34,786 bases of DNA, taken from positions 67,626 to 102,411 of the forward strand of contig PCWG01000018.1 in assembly GCA_002787235.1 (NCBI GenBank), written 5' to 3'. The translations under genes and the position numbers were made by a program. Below the pieces are notes generated by a model, which worked only from the letters and a program-made list of their open reading frames with translations, was not told the DNA's origin and did no database searches. Below, in pieces: positions 2,915 through 12,964 of the stretch (the stretch's first letter is position 1; every line of letters starts with the position of its first letter). The DNA comes from Nitrospinae bacterium CG11_big_fil_rev_8_21_14_0_20_45_15 (lineage in GTDB: Bacteria; Nitrospinota; Nitrospinia; Nitrospinales; VA-1).

Positions 2915-5002
2915 TCATTGGATTATTAACTTTGGAGTGGAATAAATATCGAGCTGGCTGTACAAGGTCAATTTGCTTTCTGCATTGAATTTCCCATCGT
3001 CAGGAATTTTGTTGTTTCTCTGGAATGCCTGAATAGCCGAGACGGTTTTGGGGCCCAGGTTGAGCGATTCACTGCCTTTGAAATACCCCAGAACCCGCAA
3101 ATTTTTCTGGAGCCAGATGGATTCTTTCCCACTGAACCCGGATTCAAAATCTTCGGGTAGATTTTCAAAATCCTTCCATAAAATGATGGCTTTTCTTGTC
3201 CACAAACGGTCCAGCAGTTCCAGTGGCATTTTCATGCGGTCGATAGAACCGAAGGAACCACTGTCACCTTCCAACGATGTGAGTGACAGATATTTTGTCC
3301 CTTGGGAATTTGGGAGCGCAATTTCCAGCATGGCTGGATAATTCAGAGCTCTCAACCTTTCGAAAGTCGCGTTGCTTTCGTACACTTTCATCCCATAGTC
3401 ATCCTGCACCTTTTGCAGATTCTCAATTCCCGTCGTATCTATATTCCAGGCTTTCAGCAACCACTTCATTGCTTCCTGTTTACTTTCATTCAATGTCAGG
3501 CTGGATAAATAGGTAACGAGTTTACTTTCTTCGGCGATGAAGAGGGCATTGGAAGCAGGTGAAACTGGTTCCTGCAAATCACTTGTTGTTGGGACGCTGA
3601 CTGCCAGCACAGGTTCTGGCGAGGACGGCGTTTCAATATTTGGCTTGATCGGGTCTGCATGGGTGGATGTTGGGGCGGTCTTTTTTTTGATAGAGATAGC
3701 CGATGCCAATTGTGCGGAATTTTTGGCTATCATCGATTGAATATCTTTCCCGATATTTGCTTTGCTGGTTGTGAAGTCTGGCAGAACGAAGTACTTGGCT
3801 GTGAAGAAAACAGTTGCCAGGCCCAGAGCAACGGGTATCAAAGTTCGCCAGATAAAAGCACCTTTGTTTGCAAGGGGTCGGATCGCACCTATGTCTTTAA
3901 CGGCAAGCTTGACGACCTTGGGAGTGATGTTTTTGACATTCAAAGTGTATGCAATCAATAAGGCACGATCGGTGATAACGTTGATCATGCGTGGGATGCC
4001 GTGCGAATAGCGATAGATCCATCGAGCTCCCTGGCGTGGGATTCGAACCTTGCCCTTTCCCAAGGCGACATTGAGTCGATGGTGGATGTAACCGCGAGTC
4101 TCCTCAAAGTTGAGAGGCAGTAGCTCCCAGCTGATGGTGATGCGCTGTCTCAGTTGTCGCAGTCCGTCTTTTTCAAGCAGGTCATCAAGTTCTGGCTGTC
4201 CGATGAGAACAATCTGAATTAATTTTTCAGTTTCAGTTTCCAGATTGGATAGCAGTCGCAGTTGCTCCAACACGCTGGGTTGCAGGTCTTGCGCTTCATC
4301 TATGATGACTACGACTCTGTTTTCTTTTTTTCTTTCCGCAAGTAGAAAATGATTCAATGTATCGATGAGGAACTTCTTGCTGTTGCTTTCTGCTGGCAAA
4401 CCCAGCTCGGAGTTGATGGTTTGAAGAAGCTCCAGCTCATCAATGCAGGGATTGAAAATATATGCGATGTTAAAATTACTTTTCAGTTCGCGCAGAAAGC
4501 TTCTGCAAATAGTGGTCTTGCCCGTTCCCACTTCGCCGATGATTTTTAAAAATCCGTTATTTTCCTGCAAACCATAAACAAGATGGGCCAAAACCTCTTT
4601 GTGCTTGGGACTCAGATAGAAATATTTTGGGTCGGGAGTCAAATCAAAGGGTTTCTCTGTGAAACCGTAATAGTCCTGATAAACGTTCAGAGTTTTATCG
4701 TCTTTTGTTCGAGCGAACGGATTGTTTCTCGATTTCTTGGATTCGGGTGCGGGGAAATCTTTTTTGTCAATATTGTGTTCAGCGTCGTAAGCAGATCTTT
4801 TTTTCTGATCGGATAAGGTATCGAACGCCTCTTGAAGCATGGCAATGGGATCCCCCTGATTATTTTCCAAAGATTGCTTTCCATTTCTGGCATCAAATTC
4901 TTTCACCAATCGATAATAAGCCTGGTTGATTTGACTTTGGTTTGCGGCCGGAGAAATGTCCAGCATTTCGTAAAAATTTTGGGAGGAGGCAGTGATTGGC
5001 AT
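2915..5002 (-). CDS. gspA: ExeA/GspA-like AAA ATPase with N-terminal J-like domain and peptidoglycan-binding domain
   Basis: The protein has 695 residues. Residues 8-75 look like a J domain (YEMLDISPAA, then LQEAFDTLSDQKKRSAYD). The His-Pro-Asp triad is absent, with EFDARN at its place. Residues 110-370 are an ExeA-type AAA ATPase: Walker A GEVGTGKTT at 156-164, Walker B VVIIDEAQD at 231-239, and the sensor region SNLETETEKLIQIVLIGQPEL. A membrane helix spans about 389-408. After a Pro/Ser-rich stretch, the C-terminal ~65 residues form a PG_binding_1 repeat (LRVLGYFKG, TVSAIQAFQRNNKIPDDGKF). ExeA hydrolyses ATP and binds peptidoglycan to let the secretin assemble. Downstream is the GspB-like gene. 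The J-like extension is not part of classical ExeA. Confidence 0.88.
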   Translation of the reverse strand: MPITASSQNFYEMLDISPAANQSQINQAYYRLVKEFDARNGKQSLENNQGDPIAMLQEAFDTLSDQKKRSAYDAEHNIDKKDFPAPESKKSRNNPFARTKDDKTLNVYQDYYGFTEKPFDLTPDPKYFYLSPKHKEVLAHLVYGLQENNGFLKIIGEVGTGKTTICRSFLRELKSNFNIAYIFNPCIDELELLQTINSELGLPAESNSKKFLIDTLNHFLLAERKKENRVVVIIDEAQDLQPSVLEQLRLLSNLETETEKLIQIVLIGQPELDDLLEKDGLRQLRQRITISWELLPLNFEETRGYIHHRLNVALGKGKVRIPRQGARWIYRYSHGIPRMINVITDRALLIAYTLNVKNITPKVVKLAVKDIGAIRPLANKGAFIWRTLIPVALGLATVFFTAKYFVLPDFTTSKANIGKDIQSMIAKNSAQLASAISIKKKTAPTSTHADPIKPNIETPSSPEPVLAVSVPTTSDLQEPVSPASNALFIAEESKLVTYLSSLTLNESKQEAMKWLLKAWNIDTTGIENLQKVQDDYGMKVYESNATFERLRALNYPAMLEIALPNSQGTKYLSLTSLEGDSGSFGSIDRMKMPLELLDRLWTRKAIILWKDFENLPEDFESGFSGKESIWLQKNLRVLGYFKGSESLNLGPKTVSAIQAFQRNNKIPDDGKFNAESKLTLYSQLDIYSTPKLIIQ

Positions 5003-5281: not shown

Positions 5282-6118
5282 ATGACATTTCCTTTAGAAG
5301 ATGAATTTGGTGATATTGTGCAAAAAGCTCGCGATCGCAGGCCCTGGTCGCAGGCAGAGCTTGCGCGTGAAACAGGTTTGAGCTCATCAGTTGTGATGCG
5401 GATTGAAAATTGTGATTTGATTCCCGATGCTGTGGACATCGCAAAAATAGCCAAAGCTCTGGATTTGCACGAGCCTTCGTTACAGGCGATCGCAAATGGA
5501 AAATGGGAGCCGGAAAAACAACCTGAGCTTTGTGGGGATTTTGAAGTCGTTTGTTTGCAAGTCTTCATGGGATCTTATCCCGTAAAATGTTATCTCTTGA
5601 TATGCAAGAAAACCCGCATGACAGCGATTGTCGATACGGGCGGTAATCCAAAAGAGATCATCAATGCGGCAAAACAATGGGGCGTTACCCCTGGCATGGT
5701 TTTACTCACCCACACACACCCCGATCATGCGGGAGGACTCAACGTATTGCTGAAGCAATGGCCGCTGAAGGTTTATGTCGGTAAAAAAGAACCGCGTTCC
5801 GGGATGAGTGGATCCCCTCATTATGTTGAAGATGGAGAAAAAATTCAGTTGGGGGCGTTGACGGTTGAAGCGATCCAGACGCCGGGACATACTCCCGGCG
5901 GTGTGTCTTATCGACTGGGTTCGGTTGTGTTTTCCGGGGATTGTATTTTCGCAGGTTCTATGGGGCGGGCCAATACCTCTTGGTCGGCATTGTACCAGTC
6001 GGTGAGTCAACGGTTGCTGGCATTTCCCAATGAGACTCGTTTGTTGCCCGGTCATGGTCCTGCCACCACTGTTGGCGAGGAAAAACTTCACAATCCATTT
6101 TTCTTCTATAAAAAGTGA
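5282..6118 (+). CDS. XRE-type HTH fused to a metallo-beta-lactamase hydrolase
   Basis: The protein has 278 residues. Residues 10-72 are a Cro/XRE helix-turn-helix (QAELARETGLSSSVVMRIEN, DIAKIAKALDL). Residues 85-278 are a glyoxalase II-like metallo-beta-lactamase fold with a complete metal site: THTHPDH (His144, His146, Asp148, His149), PGHTPG (His203), FSGD (Asp220) and PGHG (His258). The ending TTVGEEKLHNPF is typical of small hydroxyacylglutathione hydrolase-like enzymes. Such enzymes cleave thioesters or similar substrates; the substrate here is unknown. The HTH suggests that it binds DNA, perhaps sensing its own substrate. It is divergent from gspA-gspB, across a gap holding a palindrome. 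The start has only a weak ribosome site. Confidence 0.85.
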   Translation: MTFPLEDEFGDIVQKARDRRPWSQAELARETGLSSSVVMRIENCDLIPDAVDIAKIAKALDLHEPSLQAIANGKWEPEKQPELCGDFEVVCLQVFMGSYPVKCYLLICKKTRMTAIVDTGGNPKEIINAAKQWGVTPGMVLLTHTHPDHAGGLNVLLKQWPLKVYVGKKEPRSGMSGSPHYVEDGEKIQLGALTVEAIQTPGHTPGGVSYRLGSVVFSGDCIFAGSMGRANTSWSALYQSVSQRLLAFPNETRLLPGHGPATTVGEEKLHNPFFFYKK

Positions 6119-6295: not shown

Positions 6296-7456
6296 ATGAA
6301 AAAAATTCTAATAGTCCTTCTCCTTATAGGGTTAGGGGTTTTATCTTCCTGCACGCCGCCAAAGCCTGCTCCCAAAATGCCGCAGTTGTTTTATCTGGGC
6401 TATGCCATGGAAGCAGGAGCGGGGCCTTCGTTCATGATTTCGAAGGATTTTAATAAGGACGGAAATCTTGATTTGATCGTCACCAATAGCGGCGATCATA
6501 CATTTTCGTATTTTAAGGGACGAGGAGACGGTCGCTTTGATGATCAGATTGTATTCCGCACCGGGCAAGATCCGATTTGTATCACCACAGGATTGTTCAA
6601 CGCAGATGCCTATCTCGATCTGGCGGTGGTGAATTATGCCGACCAGTCCATTCAGATCTATTTGAATACCAAGACGGGAAGTTTCAGGAATACCGGACAA
6701 ATCATACATCCCGGTAAAATACCGATCAACATTGCGGCGGGTGATTTCAACACGGACGGCATGGACGATTTAGCCGTTTCGATGCGTTATCATAAAGTGA
6801 ATATTCTTTTGGCTCAGGGCAATGGTAAATTTTCAGAGCCCGTTGAGGTGCCTGTTCGCGGACAACCCACAGGCGTGGTGGTGGGAGACTATAACCGCGA
6901 TAAGAAAATGGACGTTGGTGTTGCTCTGGCAGGATCGGGAAACACGGGTGTTCAGGTTTTATGGGGGAAAGGCGATGGCACATTCGACGCTTCTAAACTT
7001 TACAAGGGAGGCGGACAACCTTTGACCATTGTCGCTCTCGATTCAAACAACGACGGCTATGGCGATTTTGTTACCTCCAGCAACGTGCTTCACTCCATGA
7101 CCTCTGTTGTCAGCGACGGGAGTGGCGGGTTCACCACGTGGAAAGATTTTGCTTCAGGAAACTTTCCGAAATTTGTCGCTGCGGCTGATTTTACCGGAGA
7201 TGGCAAGGATGACCTTGTTGTGAGCAATGCGACCGACGATAAAATTTCGATTTCTCTGGGAAGGGGAGACGGTACGTTCACCTATCCTCCCATTTATCAT
7301 AGTACGGATGAATATCCGCAAGGACTTGCAACGGGTGATTTTAACAAGGACGGTCTCATAGACATCGCGGTGGCTTGCAGAGACAAAAATATCATCGATA
7401 TTTTTCTAAAGAAGGATATGGTCAACCCCAAGACAGAACCGATGAAGAAAAGCTGA
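6296..7456 (+). CDS. VCBS/FG-GAP repeat lipoprotein
   Basis: A 386-residue protein opens with a lipoprotein signal: MKKILIVLLLIGLGVLSSC, with the lipobox Cys at residue 19, followed by a Pro/Lys-rich tether. The rest is seven repeats of about 45-50 residues with calcium-loop motifs of the type D-x-N-x-D-G-x-x-D-L: DFNKDGNLDLIV, LFNADAYLDLAV, DFNTDGMDDLAV, DYNRDKKMDVGV, DSNNDGYGDFVT, DFTGDGKDDLVV and DFNKDGLIDIAV. These build a seven-blade beta-propeller of the FG-GAP/VCBS type. Such proteins sit on the outer or inner membrane and often bind ligands or surfaces; no enzymatic residues are seen. The ribosome site is CAGGT before the ATG. The partner is unknown. Confidence 0.85.
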   Translation: MKKILIVLLLIGLGVLSSCTPPKPAPKMPQLFYLGYAMEAGAGPSFMISKDFNKDGNLDLIVTNSGDHTFSYFKGRGDGRFDDQIVFRTGQDPICITTGLFNADAYLDLAVVNYADQSIQIYLNTKTGSFRNTGQIIHPGKIPINIAAGDFNTDGMDDLAVSMRYHKVNILLAQGNGKFSEPVEVPVRGQPTGVVVGDYNRDKKMDVGVALAGSGNTGVQVLWGKGDGTFDASKLYKGGGQPLTIVALDSNNDGYGDFVTSSNVLHSMTSVVSDGSGGFTTWKDFASGNFPKFVAAADFTGDGKDDLVVSNATDDKISISLGRGDGTFTYPPIYHSTDEYPQGLATGDFNKDGLIDIAVACRDKNIIDIFLKKDMVNPKTEPMKKS

Positions 7457-7515: not shown

Positions 7516-9261
7516 TTATAAAGCTTTGAGGGTGCCTTCGGGGAAGACGGCGAAGATTTTCTCCGCGCCCAGATTTTTGGCGACGGCCATAACGTTTTGG
7601 TAGCCCGCCATATGGTTGTTGGCTGAAGGGATGAGTATGGCATCGTAGTGGGCGTCTTTCAGCCGGGATTGCAATTCTTGCGAGAGGGCATTTTCTGCGA
7701 AGAACCCGCTTCCATACGAATAATAGTTTCCAACGAAGTCCGTTGCCTGAAAATGATTTTGCATGGCATCTTGTCCCAAAAGATCGGAGGACGTTCCTGT
7801 TCGTTCCTTAAGACTTGCAAGGACCAGTTCGACGAACCAGGGTCGGGCGCAACGCAGGGTCAAAACTTTTGCGGTGGGCGATAGGGCTTCAAAGCTGATT
7901 TTCGCAGAGTCGGCAAAGGCCAAAGAGTTGAATTCAGCTTTTCCCCGGTCAAAGGCATCCAATGCGGAGACTCGATTTTCCAGAATTTTGTCTGCCGAAT
8001 AGTTGGGATAACTCACCACCACACTGCCGCCGCCGTCGAAGGCCTCCCACTCCATATCCGGTGGCAATTGTCCTGCCGATACAGAGCTGTTGTAAAAATC
8101 AGTCCCCGGTTGCGGGGTATTTATTGAGACTTGAATTTCTGCAAGCAGGCCCTGATTGGACAATTCATAAATAAGTTCGACCGTTTTTCTGTCTTCCTCA
8201 TAGGTCGATCCCAGCCCGCCAATACTGAAAGTCCCGTACACCAGCATACCAATCTCTTTGGAAAATTTTAAAGTTTTCCATAGATTCTTAAGATCGTGTT
8301 TTTTTCCCAAAGTCATTTTTTCTGCGATGACATCGCTTCCCGTTTCCACACCGATGCGGACTTTGTAATAACCAGCAGACCGCATCTCTTCGAGAGCTTC
8401 CCTGTCCAGTGAAGCGTATTCGCACATGGCTTCGTATTTTAAATTGTCAAGACCTGCCCCACGAATAGCTTTTGCCAGAGCGATGTTGAAGCTTTTTTTG
8501 ATGTTGTGGACTTCTTCATCGAAAAAGACGCCTTCCATCTCAGGATATTTTTCTTTGAGGGTACGAATCTCCTCGACGACGTTGTCAACATTCCGTGGCC
8601 GCCAGTTCAGTTCGTCGTAGTAAAGCGTTGCTGCGGCGCAGAAATTACAACGGCGCGGGCATCCTCTAGACGCGTACATTTGAATTTGTCGGTATCGGCA
8701 ATTGGGTTCGTGGTAATCGATTCGGCGGATGTCATCGTCTTCGGGAAAAGGGAGTTTGTGGATGTCTATCAACTCGCCTCTTGGATTGGGGTAGATGCCC
8801 GGTATGGAGCGCGGGTCTTTGCCGCGAACGAGGTCGAGAACTGCAAATTCGTACTCACCGATGCAAACGAAGTCTGCGGTTTTGAGGACGGTTTCAGGAT
8901 CGGCCATGGGGTGCTGTCCTGTGAAAATCAGGCGAGTGCCAAAAGCTTCTTTGGCGGCCTTGGCCAATCGTAAATCTTCACGCAGGGTTCGGGTCGAGCT
9001 TTCCATCACCAGCCAGTCGGGCTGTTCTTCTTCCAATTTGGAAAAATAGGTCTGGAAATCCCAGCCCATCAAAGCTCCATCTAAAAATTTCACATCATGA
9101 GATGTTTCCCGTTTTAATAAGGAAGAAGTGTATGCCAGTTCCCACGGGTAGTAACCGCAATTGGTGAAATTTTTTACACCGAGCGACCAACGCGAAGGAA
9201 CATGCACCATGTGGTAGCCGTTCGAGTCCACGCCTACGGAATTGGCGACGACGATTTTCAT
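7516..9261 (-). CDS. B12-type radical SAM protein with C-terminal GT9-like domain (copy 2)
   Basis: The protein has 581 residues. Residues 1-150 are a Rossmann-like B12-binding-type domain (SSLLKRETSHDVKFLDG, LIFTGQHPMADPE), without a clear DxHxxG. Residues 185-430 are a radical SAM core with the cluster motif CPRRCNFC (Cys201, Cys205, Cys208), then GVFFDEEVHN, VRIGVETGSD and INTPQPGTDFY. Residues 463-577 form an extra Rossmann-like domain (KVLTLRCARPWF, YDAILIPSANNHMAGYQNV) resembling the adjacent 181-residue protein. B12-type radical SAM enzymes often methylate or rearrange unactivated carbons in lipids and natural products; the substrate here is unknown. The start overlaps the stop of the preceding gene by 4 bases (ATGA), so translation is coupled. 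Confidence 0.85.
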   Translation of the reverse strand: MKIVVANSVGVDSNGYHMVHVPSRWSLGVKNFTNCGYYPWELAYTSSLLKRETSHDVKFLDGALMGWDFQTYFSKLEEEQPDWLVMESSTRTLREDLRLAKAAKEAFGTRLIFTGQHPMADPETVLKTADFVCIGEYEFAVLDLVRGKDPRSIPGIYPNPRGELIDIHKLPFPEDDDIRRIDYHEPNCRYRQIQMYASRGCPRRCNFCAAATLYYDELNWRPRNVDNVVEEIRTLKEKYPEMEGVFFDEEVHNIKKSFNIALAKAIRGAGLDNLKYEAMCEYASLDREALEEMRSAGYYKVRIGVETGSDVIAEKMTLGKKHDLKNLWKTLKFSKEIGMLVYGTFSIGGLGSTYEEDRKTVELIYELSNQGLLAEIQVSINTPQPGTDFYNSSVSAGQLPPDMEWEAFDGGGSVVVSYPNYSADKILENRVSALDAFDRGKAEFNSLAFADSAKISFEALSPTAKVLTLRCARPWFVELVLASLKERTGTSSDLLGQDAMQNHFQATDFVGNYYSYGSGFFAENALSQELQSRLKDAHYDAILIPSANNHMAGYQNVMAVAKNLGAEKIFAVFPEGTLKAL

Positions 9262-9803
9262 ACGGTGCCTTTTTTTGATGCGGCAGGAAAAATTTTCCGA
9301 AACAAAAATTCACCTGCAAATCCGAGCGTGATGCTGGCAAATAGAATGACGGTTGTGAGCATATTGACCACAACGAGCAGAAGTGTGGATTTCTCCAATA
9401 GAATTTTTTTGAGTAGAGAGGAACTGCTCAATTCTTGATAGGCGATTCGGGCATTGTAGCCACGCAACTTCTTGGGCTTGATGATCCAGCCTATCAGGTC
9501 GATATTGGAGTATCCCAGTCCGTGGTCGATATTGTAAAGAGAAACGGCCAGATCAAATTTACAGCGTCGAAGAATTCTGAAATTCTTCATTCCCAGATTC
9601 AATACCGACATGCGCCCGGATGCCTTGAGACTCATCACCTCATCTATCAAGGGGTGCGGTTCTCCTGACTCGACCCATGTGCAGGGTGCCAGAAGGGTGA
9701 TTCGTGAGTTGGGGTACTCCGCTTTAAGAGACTCCAGAGTTGCGTTCAGAATACGTGCGGCAGAACGGATCACCAGAATTTTTTTGGGCGCGGCGTCTGT
9801 CAT
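9258..9803 (-). CDS. Short glycosyltransferase 9-like protein with C-terminal membrane helix
   Basis: The protein has 181 residues. Residues 7-125 resemble the N-terminal half of GT9 (ADP-heptose:LPS heptosyltransferase-like) proteins: KKILVIRSAARILNATLESL, YPNSRITLLAP, HPLIDEV and FDLAVSLYN. The C-terminal nucleotide-sugar-binding half is missing. The chain ends instead in a hydrophobic segment near residues 138-167 and a basic tail. Without the donor-binding half it is probably not a working transferase. It may be a binding or scaffold protein on the inner membrane. It sits between two radical SAM genes with 4-base overlaps on both sides, and the same domain type appears at the C-termini of both. 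GT9 affinity is judged by eye. Confidence 0.65.
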   Translation of the reverse strand: MTDAAPKKILVIRSAARILNATLESLKAEYPNSRITLLAPCTWVESGEPHPLIDEVMSLKASGRMSVLNLGMKNFRILRRCKFDLAVSLYNIDHGLGYSNIDLIGWIIKPKKLRGYNARIAYQELSSSSLLKKILLEKSTLLLVVVNMLTTVILFASITLGFAGEFLFRKIFPAASKKGTV

Positions 9804-11587
9804 TTTAAATGCGATCGGCCGCAGTCGCCTGGATTGTCAAGGTCGAACACTTTTCCTTCAACATTGACAGCCAACAGTTTTGGGATGCCCAAACGTTTTG
9901 CAATGGCTTTGACTTCGGCGTAACCGTTGCCAGAGATATTGTTGTATGGAATAACGCCTATCTCGTAAGAACGTTTCTGCAAGGATTCGAGCAAGGGCTC
10001 GGGAAATTCAGAACTGTTGAAAGGTCTGGAACCGTATGTGTGGATGTCTCGCAAGCGTTTATTTTGGGCTAGTTCCTTTTCAACGGCAGTTTGACCGACC
10101 GCAGAAATAGGGGCCGAACCAAATCGTTCAGACAATGAATTGACGATGTCGTTGAATTGTTTCATTCGTGAACTTCTGAATACGAGAATCTCTCCATTGC
10201 GATCGAGATTGATGGAAGAAAAGTTGTCTTTGGCTGTTGCAGAATAGCGTTGATTGAATCCCATTTCATAAAGAGTTTCAGCCTCGCGGAAATTGGCCAT
10301 GACTTTCTCTGCCGGATATTCAGGGTTGTCCACAACACAATGATTGCCACCATCGAAATGTTTCCAATCGAGGTTCCGCAGATAGCCTTTTTTCAGCATC
10401 CGGTTATAAAACGGAGTGCCGGGCTGAGGGGTGCTGATGGACAACTGGAAACGCCATAGCAGGCCATTGTCTAATAATTCGCGTATGAATCGTACGGTTT
10501 TCTTGTCGCATTCATCGGTAGAGCCTTCGCCGCCAAAGGTGAAAGTTCCGTAAAATTTGAGACCGATGCGGGTTCCGTACTCCATCAGTTGTTTTAATTT
10601 TTTGATGTTGAATTTTTTCATCAACTCCATGCCACGCGCGGCATGTTCTCCGGCTGTTTCAATTCCGAGCCGAACCATGTAGTAGCCCGCCGCTTTCATA
10701 TGATCCAGGACCTCTTCGTCCATCGGCCATTGTCCACACATGACATCGTATTTGAGATCGTCGAGTCCGTTATCGCGAATGGCTTTGGTGAGGTCTATGA
10801 TGTATTTTTTGCTTCCGTTGTGAACTTCTTCGTCGAAAAAGATCCCTTCCATTTGCGGGTATTTGGCGCGCAAGGTCTGGAGTTCGTGAATCACATTTTC
10901 AGGATCGCGAGGTCTCCAGTTGGGCCGGGAATAAGAAATGTTTCCGCAAACGCAGAAGGTACAGGATAGAGGACATCCTCTCGAAGCATAGGCCTGTATT
11001 TCCAGATACTCACTCGAAGGTTCGCCGGGCATGCCGTATCGCAATCGGGAAACGTCATCGTCTTCAGGCAAAGGGAGATCGTTCACATCCAGAGGGGAAC
11101 GCAGGTTCAAATTTGGGAAAAGGCCGGGGATATCGTTGCGATTTTTTCCTTGCAGGATGTCTCTCACAACCAGTTCGTATTCGCGCAAAACCACATAATC
11201 AGCGTATTCACTGACTTCCTCAGGAAAAGTGGTGGCATGCGGACCGCAGAGGATCAATTTGGTTCCAAACCGTTTTTTCAGCTCTTTGGCGAAGCGACTG
11301 TCTGCGGCAATGGTACGTGTGGCACTGTCCATGACCAGATAATCGGGTGCCATCTCTGAAACCTTTTCCACGAAGGCGTCGTGATCCAGCTTGTCAAGAC
11401 AACCGTCAAAGAATCGCACTTCGTGATCGGTGTCCCTTTTGAGCATCGAGGAACAGTAGGCCAACTGCCAGGGATAGTAGGTGAAGATGTTTAAATCCTT
11501 AGAGCTGTTTGTCCAGCGGCTGGGCGAGTGGATCATCGCGTTTCCGTCAATATCAATGCCTACGGAATTGCATACGGCAACTTTCAT
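9800..11587 (-). CDS. B12-type radical SAM protein with C-terminal GT9-like domain (copy 1)
   Basis: This 595-residue protein is a paralogue of the 581-residue one and shares YPW-LAY-SS-LKR near the start, the conserved D-S/E-S-x-TRT stretch, FFDEEVHN, and STPQPGT-FYN. The cluster motif is CPLSCTFC (Cys205, Cys209, Cys212). The N-terminal ~150 residues form a B12-type Rossmann domain (LILCGPHATTFPEE). The C-terminal domain spans about 465-580 (EILVFRSSRMKQF, VIPYNNISGNGYAEV). It is the first gene of a three-gene unit whose members overlap by 4 bases. The pair most likely arose by duplication and then diverged. Product and substrate are unknown; modification of a lipid or glycan is an inference from the GT9-like domain. 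Confidence 0.85.
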   Translation of the reverse strand: MKVAVCNSVGIDIDGNAMIHSPSRWTNSSKDLNIFTYYPWQLAYCSSMLKRDTDHEVRFFDGCLDKLDHDAFVEKVSEMAPDYLVMDSATRTIAADSRFAKELKKRFGTKLILCGPHATTFPEEVSEYADYVVLREYELVVRDILQGKNRNDIPGLFPNLNLRSPLDVNDLPLPEDDDVSRLRYGMPGEPSSEYLEIQAYASRGCPLSCTFCVCGNISYSRPNWRPRDPENVIHELQTLRAKYPQMEGIFFDEEVHNGSKKYIIDLTKAIRDNGLDDLKYDVMCGQWPMDEEVLDHMKAAGYYMVRLGIETAGEHAARGMELMKKFNIKKLKQLMEYGTRIGLKFYGTFTFGGEGSTDECDKKTVRFIRELLDNGLLWRFQLSISTPQPGTPFYNRMLKKGYLRNLDWKHFDGGNHCVVDNPEYPAEKVMANFREAETLYEMGFNQRYSATAKDNFSSINLDRNGEILVFRSSRMKQFNDIVNSLSERFGSAPISAVGQTAVEKELAQNKRLRDIHTYGSRPFNSSEFPEPLLESLQKRSYEIGVIPYNNISGNGYAEVKAIAKRLGIPKLLAVNVEGKVFDLDNPGDCGRSHLK

Positions 11588-11869: not shown

Positions 11870-11995
11870 GATCCGATGGCAGGTTTACGGCAATTGCAGG
11901 GAATGCTCTGCCAACGTTCGTACATTATAATGAATAAAGCAGGCTTTGGGGAATCAATCCCGCTTGTTGAGATTTAAATTTTTGGGAAAGAATTG

Positions 11996-12964
11996 ATGAC
12001 AGAAGATACGAAACAGAAAGAACCCGAACAGAAAAAAGGCGGTTTTTTTTCGCGATTGAAGGAAGGCCTCCAAAAAACACGATCTTCCATGGTTGGGGGA
12101 CTCAGTTCCATCATCGGAGGAAAGGGGAACCTGGGGCCGGAAACGATGGAAGAGTTGGAAGAAGCTCTGTTGAAAGCAGATGTGGGGCTTTCTGCAACCC
12201 ATTATATTCTGGAACAACTCAGAGAAGGCATCAAAAAAGAAAAAATCAAGGAAAAACCCGAAGCGATGGCTTTACTGCAACGTATTTTGACCAAGCTTTT
12301 GGATGAGAACCAGACAGAGTTGGAATTTCCTGAAGGAGAACCTTTGATCATTTTGATGGTGGGAATCAACGGTTCAGGAAAAACGACAACGATTGGGAAA
12401 TTGTCGGCTTATTGGAAAGGTCAGGGGAAAAGTTTATTGATCGCCGCTGGCGATACCTTTCGAGCCGCTGCCATCGAGCAATTGCAGGTTTGGGCGAAAA
12501 GAGGGGGAATCACCTGTGTTCATCAAAAAGCGGGTTCTGACCCCTCTGCCGTAGCTTACGATGGTGTTCAGGCCGCTGTTGTTCGCAAAATGGATCTGGC
12601 CATGATTGACACTGCAGGTCGTTTGCAAACCAACACTAATTTGATGGAAGAGTTAAAAAAGGTCAAACGAGTGATTGGAAAAGTACTTCCTACGGCCCCG
12701 CATGAAGTTTGGCTGGTTCTGGATTCTTCGATCGGGCAAAACAGCATTTCGCAAGCCCGGTTGTTTCATGAAGCATTGGGCGTGACGGGATTGGTGATGA
12801 CCAAGCTGGACGGTTCCGGCAAAGGGGGTGTCTTGTTTTATCTGGCTAGAGAGATGAAAATACCCGTTCGTTTTATTGGAGTCGGTGAGCAGACGGAAGA
12901 TCTGCAACCCTTCGTCGCCAGCGATTTTGTATCCGCATTGCTGGCACCGGAAAGCTCAAAATGA
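11996..12964 (+). CDS. ftsY: Signal recognition particle receptor FtsY
   Basis: The protein has 322 residues from the ATG at 11996 (a TTG one codon earlier is also possible; GGGAAAG precedes both). A short acidic/basic start (DTKQKEPEQKKGG) replaces the long A domain. The N domain follows (TMEELEEALLKADVGLSATHYILEQL). The G domain has G1 GINGSGKTTT, the insertion box with GDTFRAAAIEQLQVWAKR, G3 DTAGRLQ, and G4 TKLDGSGKGG, ending IGVGEQTEDLQPF. FtsY is the membrane GTPase that receives ribosome-SRP complexes at the translocon. One site is unusual: DSSIGQNS replaces the common DATTGQNA. It appears monocistronic, with a terminator after it. Confidence 0.95.
   Translation: MTEDTKQKEPEQKKGGFFSRLKEGLQKTRSSMVGGLSSIIGGKGNLGPETMEELEEALLKADVGLSATHYILEQLREGIKKEKIKEKPEAMALLQRILTKLLDENQTELEFPEGEPLIILMVGINGSGKTTTIGKLSAYWKGQGKSLLIAAGDTFRAAAIEQLQVWAKRGGITCVHQKAGSDPSAVAYDGVQAAVVRKMDLAMIDTAGRLQTNTNLMEELKKVKRVIGKVLPTAPHEVWLVLDSSIGQNSISQARLFHEALGVTGLVMTKLDGSGKGGVLFYLAREMKIPVRFIGVGEQTEDLQPFVASDFVSALLAPESSK

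Follow-up and report, generated by a model that had tools for sequence, protein, structure and literature searches.

A conserved three-gene unit of the Nitrospinota, in which two predicted radical SAM enzymes and a small membrane-anchored protein share one GT9-like domain, follows the Maf transferases in its distribution. Because the unit comes and goes with these flagellin glycosyltransferases, it suggests an undescribed radical step in the making of the flagellar sugar coat. We judge the chances evenly balanced that the three genes, here called A, B and C, form a module dedicated to the synthesis or modification of a flagellin-glycan sugar. Among the marine nitrite oxidisers known, Nitrospinae are the most abundant, and if the proposal is true, radical chemistry would extend their known toolkit for flagellar glycans.

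Results

The unit lies in a window of 34,786 nucleotides, the whole stretch of DNA that was analysed, from a Nitrospinota genome. It consists of three minus-strand genes: A (9800..11587), for a 595-residue B12-type radical SAM protein with a GT9 N-lobe-like tail; B (9258..9803), for a free-standing GT9 N-lobe-like protein of 181 residues with a C-terminal membrane helix; and C (7516..9261), for a 581-residue paralogue of A with the same kinds of domain. Each gene overlaps the next by 4 bases, as the preliminary description of this DNA had stated, and the overlap is ATGA at each junction. The locus is bounded by the divergent gene ftsY (11993..12964, plus strand; Pfam SRP54), a conserved neighbour, and by a convergent gene for an FG-GAP repeat protein (6296..7456, plus strand; assigned with Pfam), with no flagellar or glycan genes nearby. 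Both flanking genes were used as locus markers; ftsY is a marker only and is not thought to have a share in the unit's function. Beyond this locus, positions 2915-5002 of the window encode a single ExeA/GspA-like protein with an added J domain, in which DnaJ and AAA ATPase domains are combined with a peptidoglycan-binding domain at the C-terminus, and positions 5282-6118 encode a metallo-beta-lactamase fold domain fused to a helix-turn-helix domain.

Named relatives found in a scan with two peptide patterns of A, which distant relatives may escape, were all Nitrospinota, mostly Nitrospinaceae or Nitrospina. A search for the same gene order in related genomes had been proposed as a check, and the order proved to be conserved: A-B-C stand on one strand in 29 of 35 loci, in three families, while of the remaining six loci three run into contig ends and the other three hold B-C only (a fourth family, f2, genus g10). 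Genomes of f2 carry an additional related radical SAM gene elsewhere, in a TPR/GT2/radical SAM/methyltransferase cluster; its product has TPR repeats where A and C have the GT9-like tail. Family f3 likewise has an additional related radical SAM gene, as judged by similarity and gene sizes only. In the f2 genomes without A, such a cluster (L153:4139-16372; also L154 and L155) comprises two B12 radical SAM genes, two GT2 genes, genes for TPR proteins and a methyltransferase gene, and its first radical SAM protein is the closest relative of A and C outside the unit.

Loss of the unit leaves recognizable sites, as ftsY directly adjoins the FG-GAP gene in genomes G010, G011, G031, G042, G044 and G048. 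At another locus (L161:10862-12627, G009:C3), the first part of A is fused in frame to C, B is deleted and C carries a frameshift. This copy is a decayed unit, as expected of recombination between the paralogues A and C, and neither FliG nor Maf was found in that genome.

A and C are 43% identical end to end, and A shares 68-95% identity with its orthologues. Both proteins have an N-terminal B12-binding-type Rossmann domain that scores above the Pfam cut-off for PF02310 (A: residues 37-142, 11162..11479, minus strand, E 4.2e-8; C: residues 43-141, 8839..9135, minus strand, E 7.3e-9), followed by a radical SAM core above the cut-off for PF04055 (A: residues 201-367, 10487..10987, minus strand; C: residues 197-364, 8170..8673, minus strand). 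The CxxxCxxC cysteines of the core, at 205-212 in A and 201-208 in C, are invariant in the aligned orthologues. Based on their sequences, A and C are predicted class-B radical SAM enzymes, that is, enzymes with a B12-type Rossmann domain. The top NCBIfam model for both is HpnJ (TIGR03471), with 136 bits for A and 149 for C against a cut-off of 577.6, and both score far under every other NCBIfam family cut-off as well, so homology does not reveal which reaction they catalyse. Among solved structures, A and C are most like AprD4 (6fd2), a radical SAM 1,2-diol dehydratase that acts on an aminosugar; for A it comes first in both sequence and fold, as a distant match of 35.8 bits.

The preliminary description had seen the layout of the free-standing protein B in the tails of A and C, and profile comparison with hhalign showed the three to be homologous. 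Residues 4-127 of B align with residues 462-585 of A (probability 98.3%, E 2.6e-14), and B also aligns with residues 455-581 of C (96.2%, E 2.2e-9); the matches fall on the tails and never on the B12-type Rossmann domains. Plain BLASTP did not find the A/B and B/C similarity, and the homology is visible by profiles alone; when many genomes are searched in six frames, the B profile also recovers the A and C tails. The domain occupies residues 462-585 of A (9833..10204, minus strand), residues 6-125 of B (9429..9788, minus strand) and residues 463-577 of C (7531..7875, minus strand). The motif that had been reported for its end is present in a slightly different form, with the consensus [FY]-[DE]-x(6,7)-N-[NI]-x(2)-[GA]-(x)-G-Y. 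In B the domain is followed by a hydrophobic helix, taken as a membrane anchor, at about residues 134-168 (9300..9404, minus strand), and all 31 B proteins have a hydrophobic 19-residue window above 1.6 on the Kyte-Doolittle scale. B has no Pfam or NCBIfam match, and Pfam searches across all B members gave chance matches only.

The structural claim is based on the fold matches of B, on the order of strands and helices and on sequence profiles. In the model of B (pLDDT 81.8), strands alternate with helices and a single long helix follows at residues 127-171. The AF2 model of A was poor overall (pLDDT 64.8), so only its tail was used; the tail reaches pLDDT 80-91 over most of its length, and its confident part has the same strand and helix order as B. 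A Foldseek search of the PDB with the B model gave only two matches below 1e-3, both GT9 enzymes (3tov, 4.4e-4; 1psw, 5.7e-4), and the B sequence profile ranks the same entries first (0.003 and 0.31, respectively). The genome's own GT9 protein also matches (94.9%). The top PDB matches of B, two GT9 glycosyltransferases, thus identify the shared domain as a GT9 N-lobe. The hhalign, Foldseek and profile results together support the view, put forward in the preliminary description, that three copies of a GT9 N-terminal-like domain are in use, one of them on a membrane anchor.

In a joint alignment, the GD motif of GT9, which holds the catalytic Asp of heptosyltransferases, was missing in all rows of B, A tails and C tails and was present in all GT9 rows, and the loop after strand 4 of the shared domain carries a new N-[NI]-x2-[GA]-x-G-Y insert. 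No C-terminal donor-binding lobe was found, as B ends in the membrane helix and A and C end with the shared domain. Because the catalytic GD is lacking in all three copies and the donor lobe is absent, GT9 catalysis by the shared domain is not supported, and the domain is unlikely to be a glycosyltransferase. Its probable role is that of a binding or docking module, not of an enzyme.

Co-occurrence was compared as presence over the phylum, with Maf scored as PF01973 (Maf / MptE-like), a family that covers several subtypes. Among genomes of the order with a judgeable locus, most of them incomplete MAGs, 42 had both the unit and Maf, 16 had neither, one had the unit only and none had Maf only (phi 0.96), an association reached after several families were tried. 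A Maf transferase was thus found in 42 of the 43 unit-bearing genomes, with four matches in the source genome, and the single discordant genome (G020), with the unit and without Maf, is 76% complete. The assemblies of three genomes that appeared to have Maf only (G023, G066 and G068) contain no ftsY either, so the region of the locus is missing there. On the FtsY tree the unit changed state at least seven times, and all five supported independent pairs agree with Maf, giving a sign test of 0.0625, the lowest value that can be reached with five pairs.

The control families followed the unit less closely, with phi values of 0.17 for FliG, 0.17 for Wzy_C and 0.48 for flagellin, which tracks the unit partly; the flagellin count fits less well than Maf. 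NeuB was uninformative because its model matches some synthase in almost every genome. In the FliG tree, which lacks three of 40 loci, including G003 and G011, the FliG proteins of genomes without the unit are orthologues of those of unit-bearing relatives. The link is therefore not merely to the flagellar motor, and this result speaks against the unit as a tracker of one flagellum type. Almost every genome of the order has squalene-hopene cyclase, whether the unit is present or absent. The preliminary description had suggested modification of a lipid or glycan near the inner membrane; the distribution narrows that suggestion, as the unit tracks Maf and does not track the O-antigen polymerase/ligase, the motor or the hopanoid cyclase.

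By position, the unit's own genes were not found in a flagellar or glycan cluster, and linkage to Maf is confined to B-like relatives from outside the order. These single-domain B-like proteins with the same motif belong to families f5 and f9. Same-strand, operon-like runs of B-like and Maf genes occur in four genomes, and in two of these the runs include radical SAM genes. L143 has genes for Maf-like, TPR, methyltransferase, B-like, GT4 and B12 radical SAM proteins, all on one strand; L146 has Maf-like, TPR, B-like and GT4; L145 has Maf-like, TPR and B-like; and L148 has Maf-like, two genes, GT2, B-like, radical SAM/SPASM and ATP-grasp. The GT2, B-like, radical SAM/SPASM and ATP-grasp cassette is also found at L147, and again at L144 with NeuB and flagellin on the same contig. 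At a further locus (L073:4675-6327), a B-like domain and a hydrophobic stretch are fused to a GT4-like glycosyltransferase, and the fusion gene lies beside a B12 radical SAM gene and a radical SAM/SPASM gene. Across these varied arrangements, the domain thus turns up repeatedly in the company of radical SAM and glycan genes.

In the source genome, the flagellin array ends in genes for a cytidylyltransferase and a sugar-type GFO/IDH/MocA oxidoreductase, and a PF01973 protein gene adjoins those of FlgE and FliK, which together fit a CMP-sugar flagellin glycosylation. In many Nitrospinota genomes, a gene of the Wzy_C family (O-antigen ligase / O-oligosaccharyltransferase type) lies within about 5-10 kb of the flagellin array (G014:C3, G043:C30, G038:C35, G005:C181, G026:C6, G041:C11, G039:C27, G018:C22 and G004:C1).

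Discussion

Our proposal draws on the domain make-up of the proteins, the homology of the three domains, the conserved gene order, and the co-occurrence and genomic linkage with Maf. From these we infer a substrate, a reaction, the formation of a complex and an order of steps. A and C would act by radical chemistry on the sugar or an activated or carrier-bound form of it, with deoxygenation, methylation and epimerisation as candidate reactions. Their non-catalytic GT9 N-lobe domains may hold the glycan substrate or dock to partners, and B, the same domain on a membrane helix, could serve to recruit both enzymes to the inner membrane. Maf transferases would then put the product on flagellin before export. 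The specific reaction of A and C, predicted as radical chemistry on the flagellin-glycan sugar, is offered with low confidence. Nitrospinae have been reported, by genome analysis, to be B12 auxotrophs (PMC8026999).

A broader role in surface glycans deserves weighing, in which the unit, working at the inner membrane, would modify the LPS core, O-antigen or capsule, and the link with Maf would be indirect, through a shared sugar or lifestyle. The LPS core is normally built by GT9 enzymes, B-like proteins elsewhere have neighbours that resemble those of surface-glycan clusters (GT2, GT4, ATP-grasp and methyltransferase genes), and the A- and C-like radical SAM genes of f2 sit in such a cluster. 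However, Wzy_C does not follow the unit (phi 0.17), and the unit is lost along with Maf while the glycan genes stay. We therefore regard such a role as unlikely, but by no means negligible.

Two further readings appear highly improbable to us. The unit might modify a lipid, such as a hopanoid head group, in an HpnJ-like manner, given that HpnJ is the top NCBIfam model for A and C and that hopanoid genes have been reported for Nitrospinae (PMC8026999). The scores nevertheless fall far under the HpnJ cut-off, and because the cyclase is present with and without the unit, nearly order-wide, the unit has been lost without hopanoid loss; we rejected a hopanoid link on this distribution. Alternatively, A and C might modify the flagellin protein itself, for example by side-chain C-methylation, with the GT9-like domains docking to flagellin or Maf, as some class-B relatives among the matches act on peptides or proteins (ApyD; MgmA) and the unit co-occurs with multi-flagellin genomes. 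The aminosugar substrate of AprD4, the nearest solved structure by sequence and fold, argues against this, as do the GT9 N-lobes, which belong to glycan pathways, and the fusion of the domain to a GT4 enzyme.

Action on a flagellin-glycan sugar is thus the reading that we prefer. It would entail a previously undescribed radical SAM step in flagellin glycosylation, carried out by a complex in which a catalytically empty GT9 N-lobe serves as a substrate-holding or docking module common to two enzymes and one membrane anchor; this joint claim we hold tentatively, as somewhat less than an even prospect. In the literature searched, no paper connected nonulosonic acid with radical SAM, and the only match for flagellin glycosylation together with radical SAM was unrelated. 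More generally, the shared domain represents an unannotated family, a GT9 N-lobe without GD, with the signature N-[NI]-x2-[GA]-x-G-Y and no Pfam or NCBIfam match, and this GT9-like family recurs beside radical SAM enzymes in several gene arrangements.

Compared with known systems, the shared domain resembles GT9 enzymes (ADP-heptose:LPS heptosyltransferase II, 1psw; 3tov) in N-lobe fold and sequence profile, but it differs in having no GD and no donor lobe, in its new loop, and in serving as the tail of a radical SAM enzyme or riding on a membrane helix. AprD4 has the B12-type Rossmann domain and radical SAM core of A and C, whereas it lacks the GT9-like tail and matches with 35.8 bits only. 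Among NCBIfam models, HpnJ fits the core of both best, yet 136-149 bits stand against its cut-off of 577.6, and the unit's distribution has no hopanoid link. The glycosylation of flagellin by Maf enzymes with nonulosonic acids is established (PMC11339370). Throughout the order such Maf/CMP-nonulosonate systems co-occur with the unit, and outside the order they are linked to B-like proteins; they differ from our proposal in the radical SAM step, which we did not find described for them in the literature searched.
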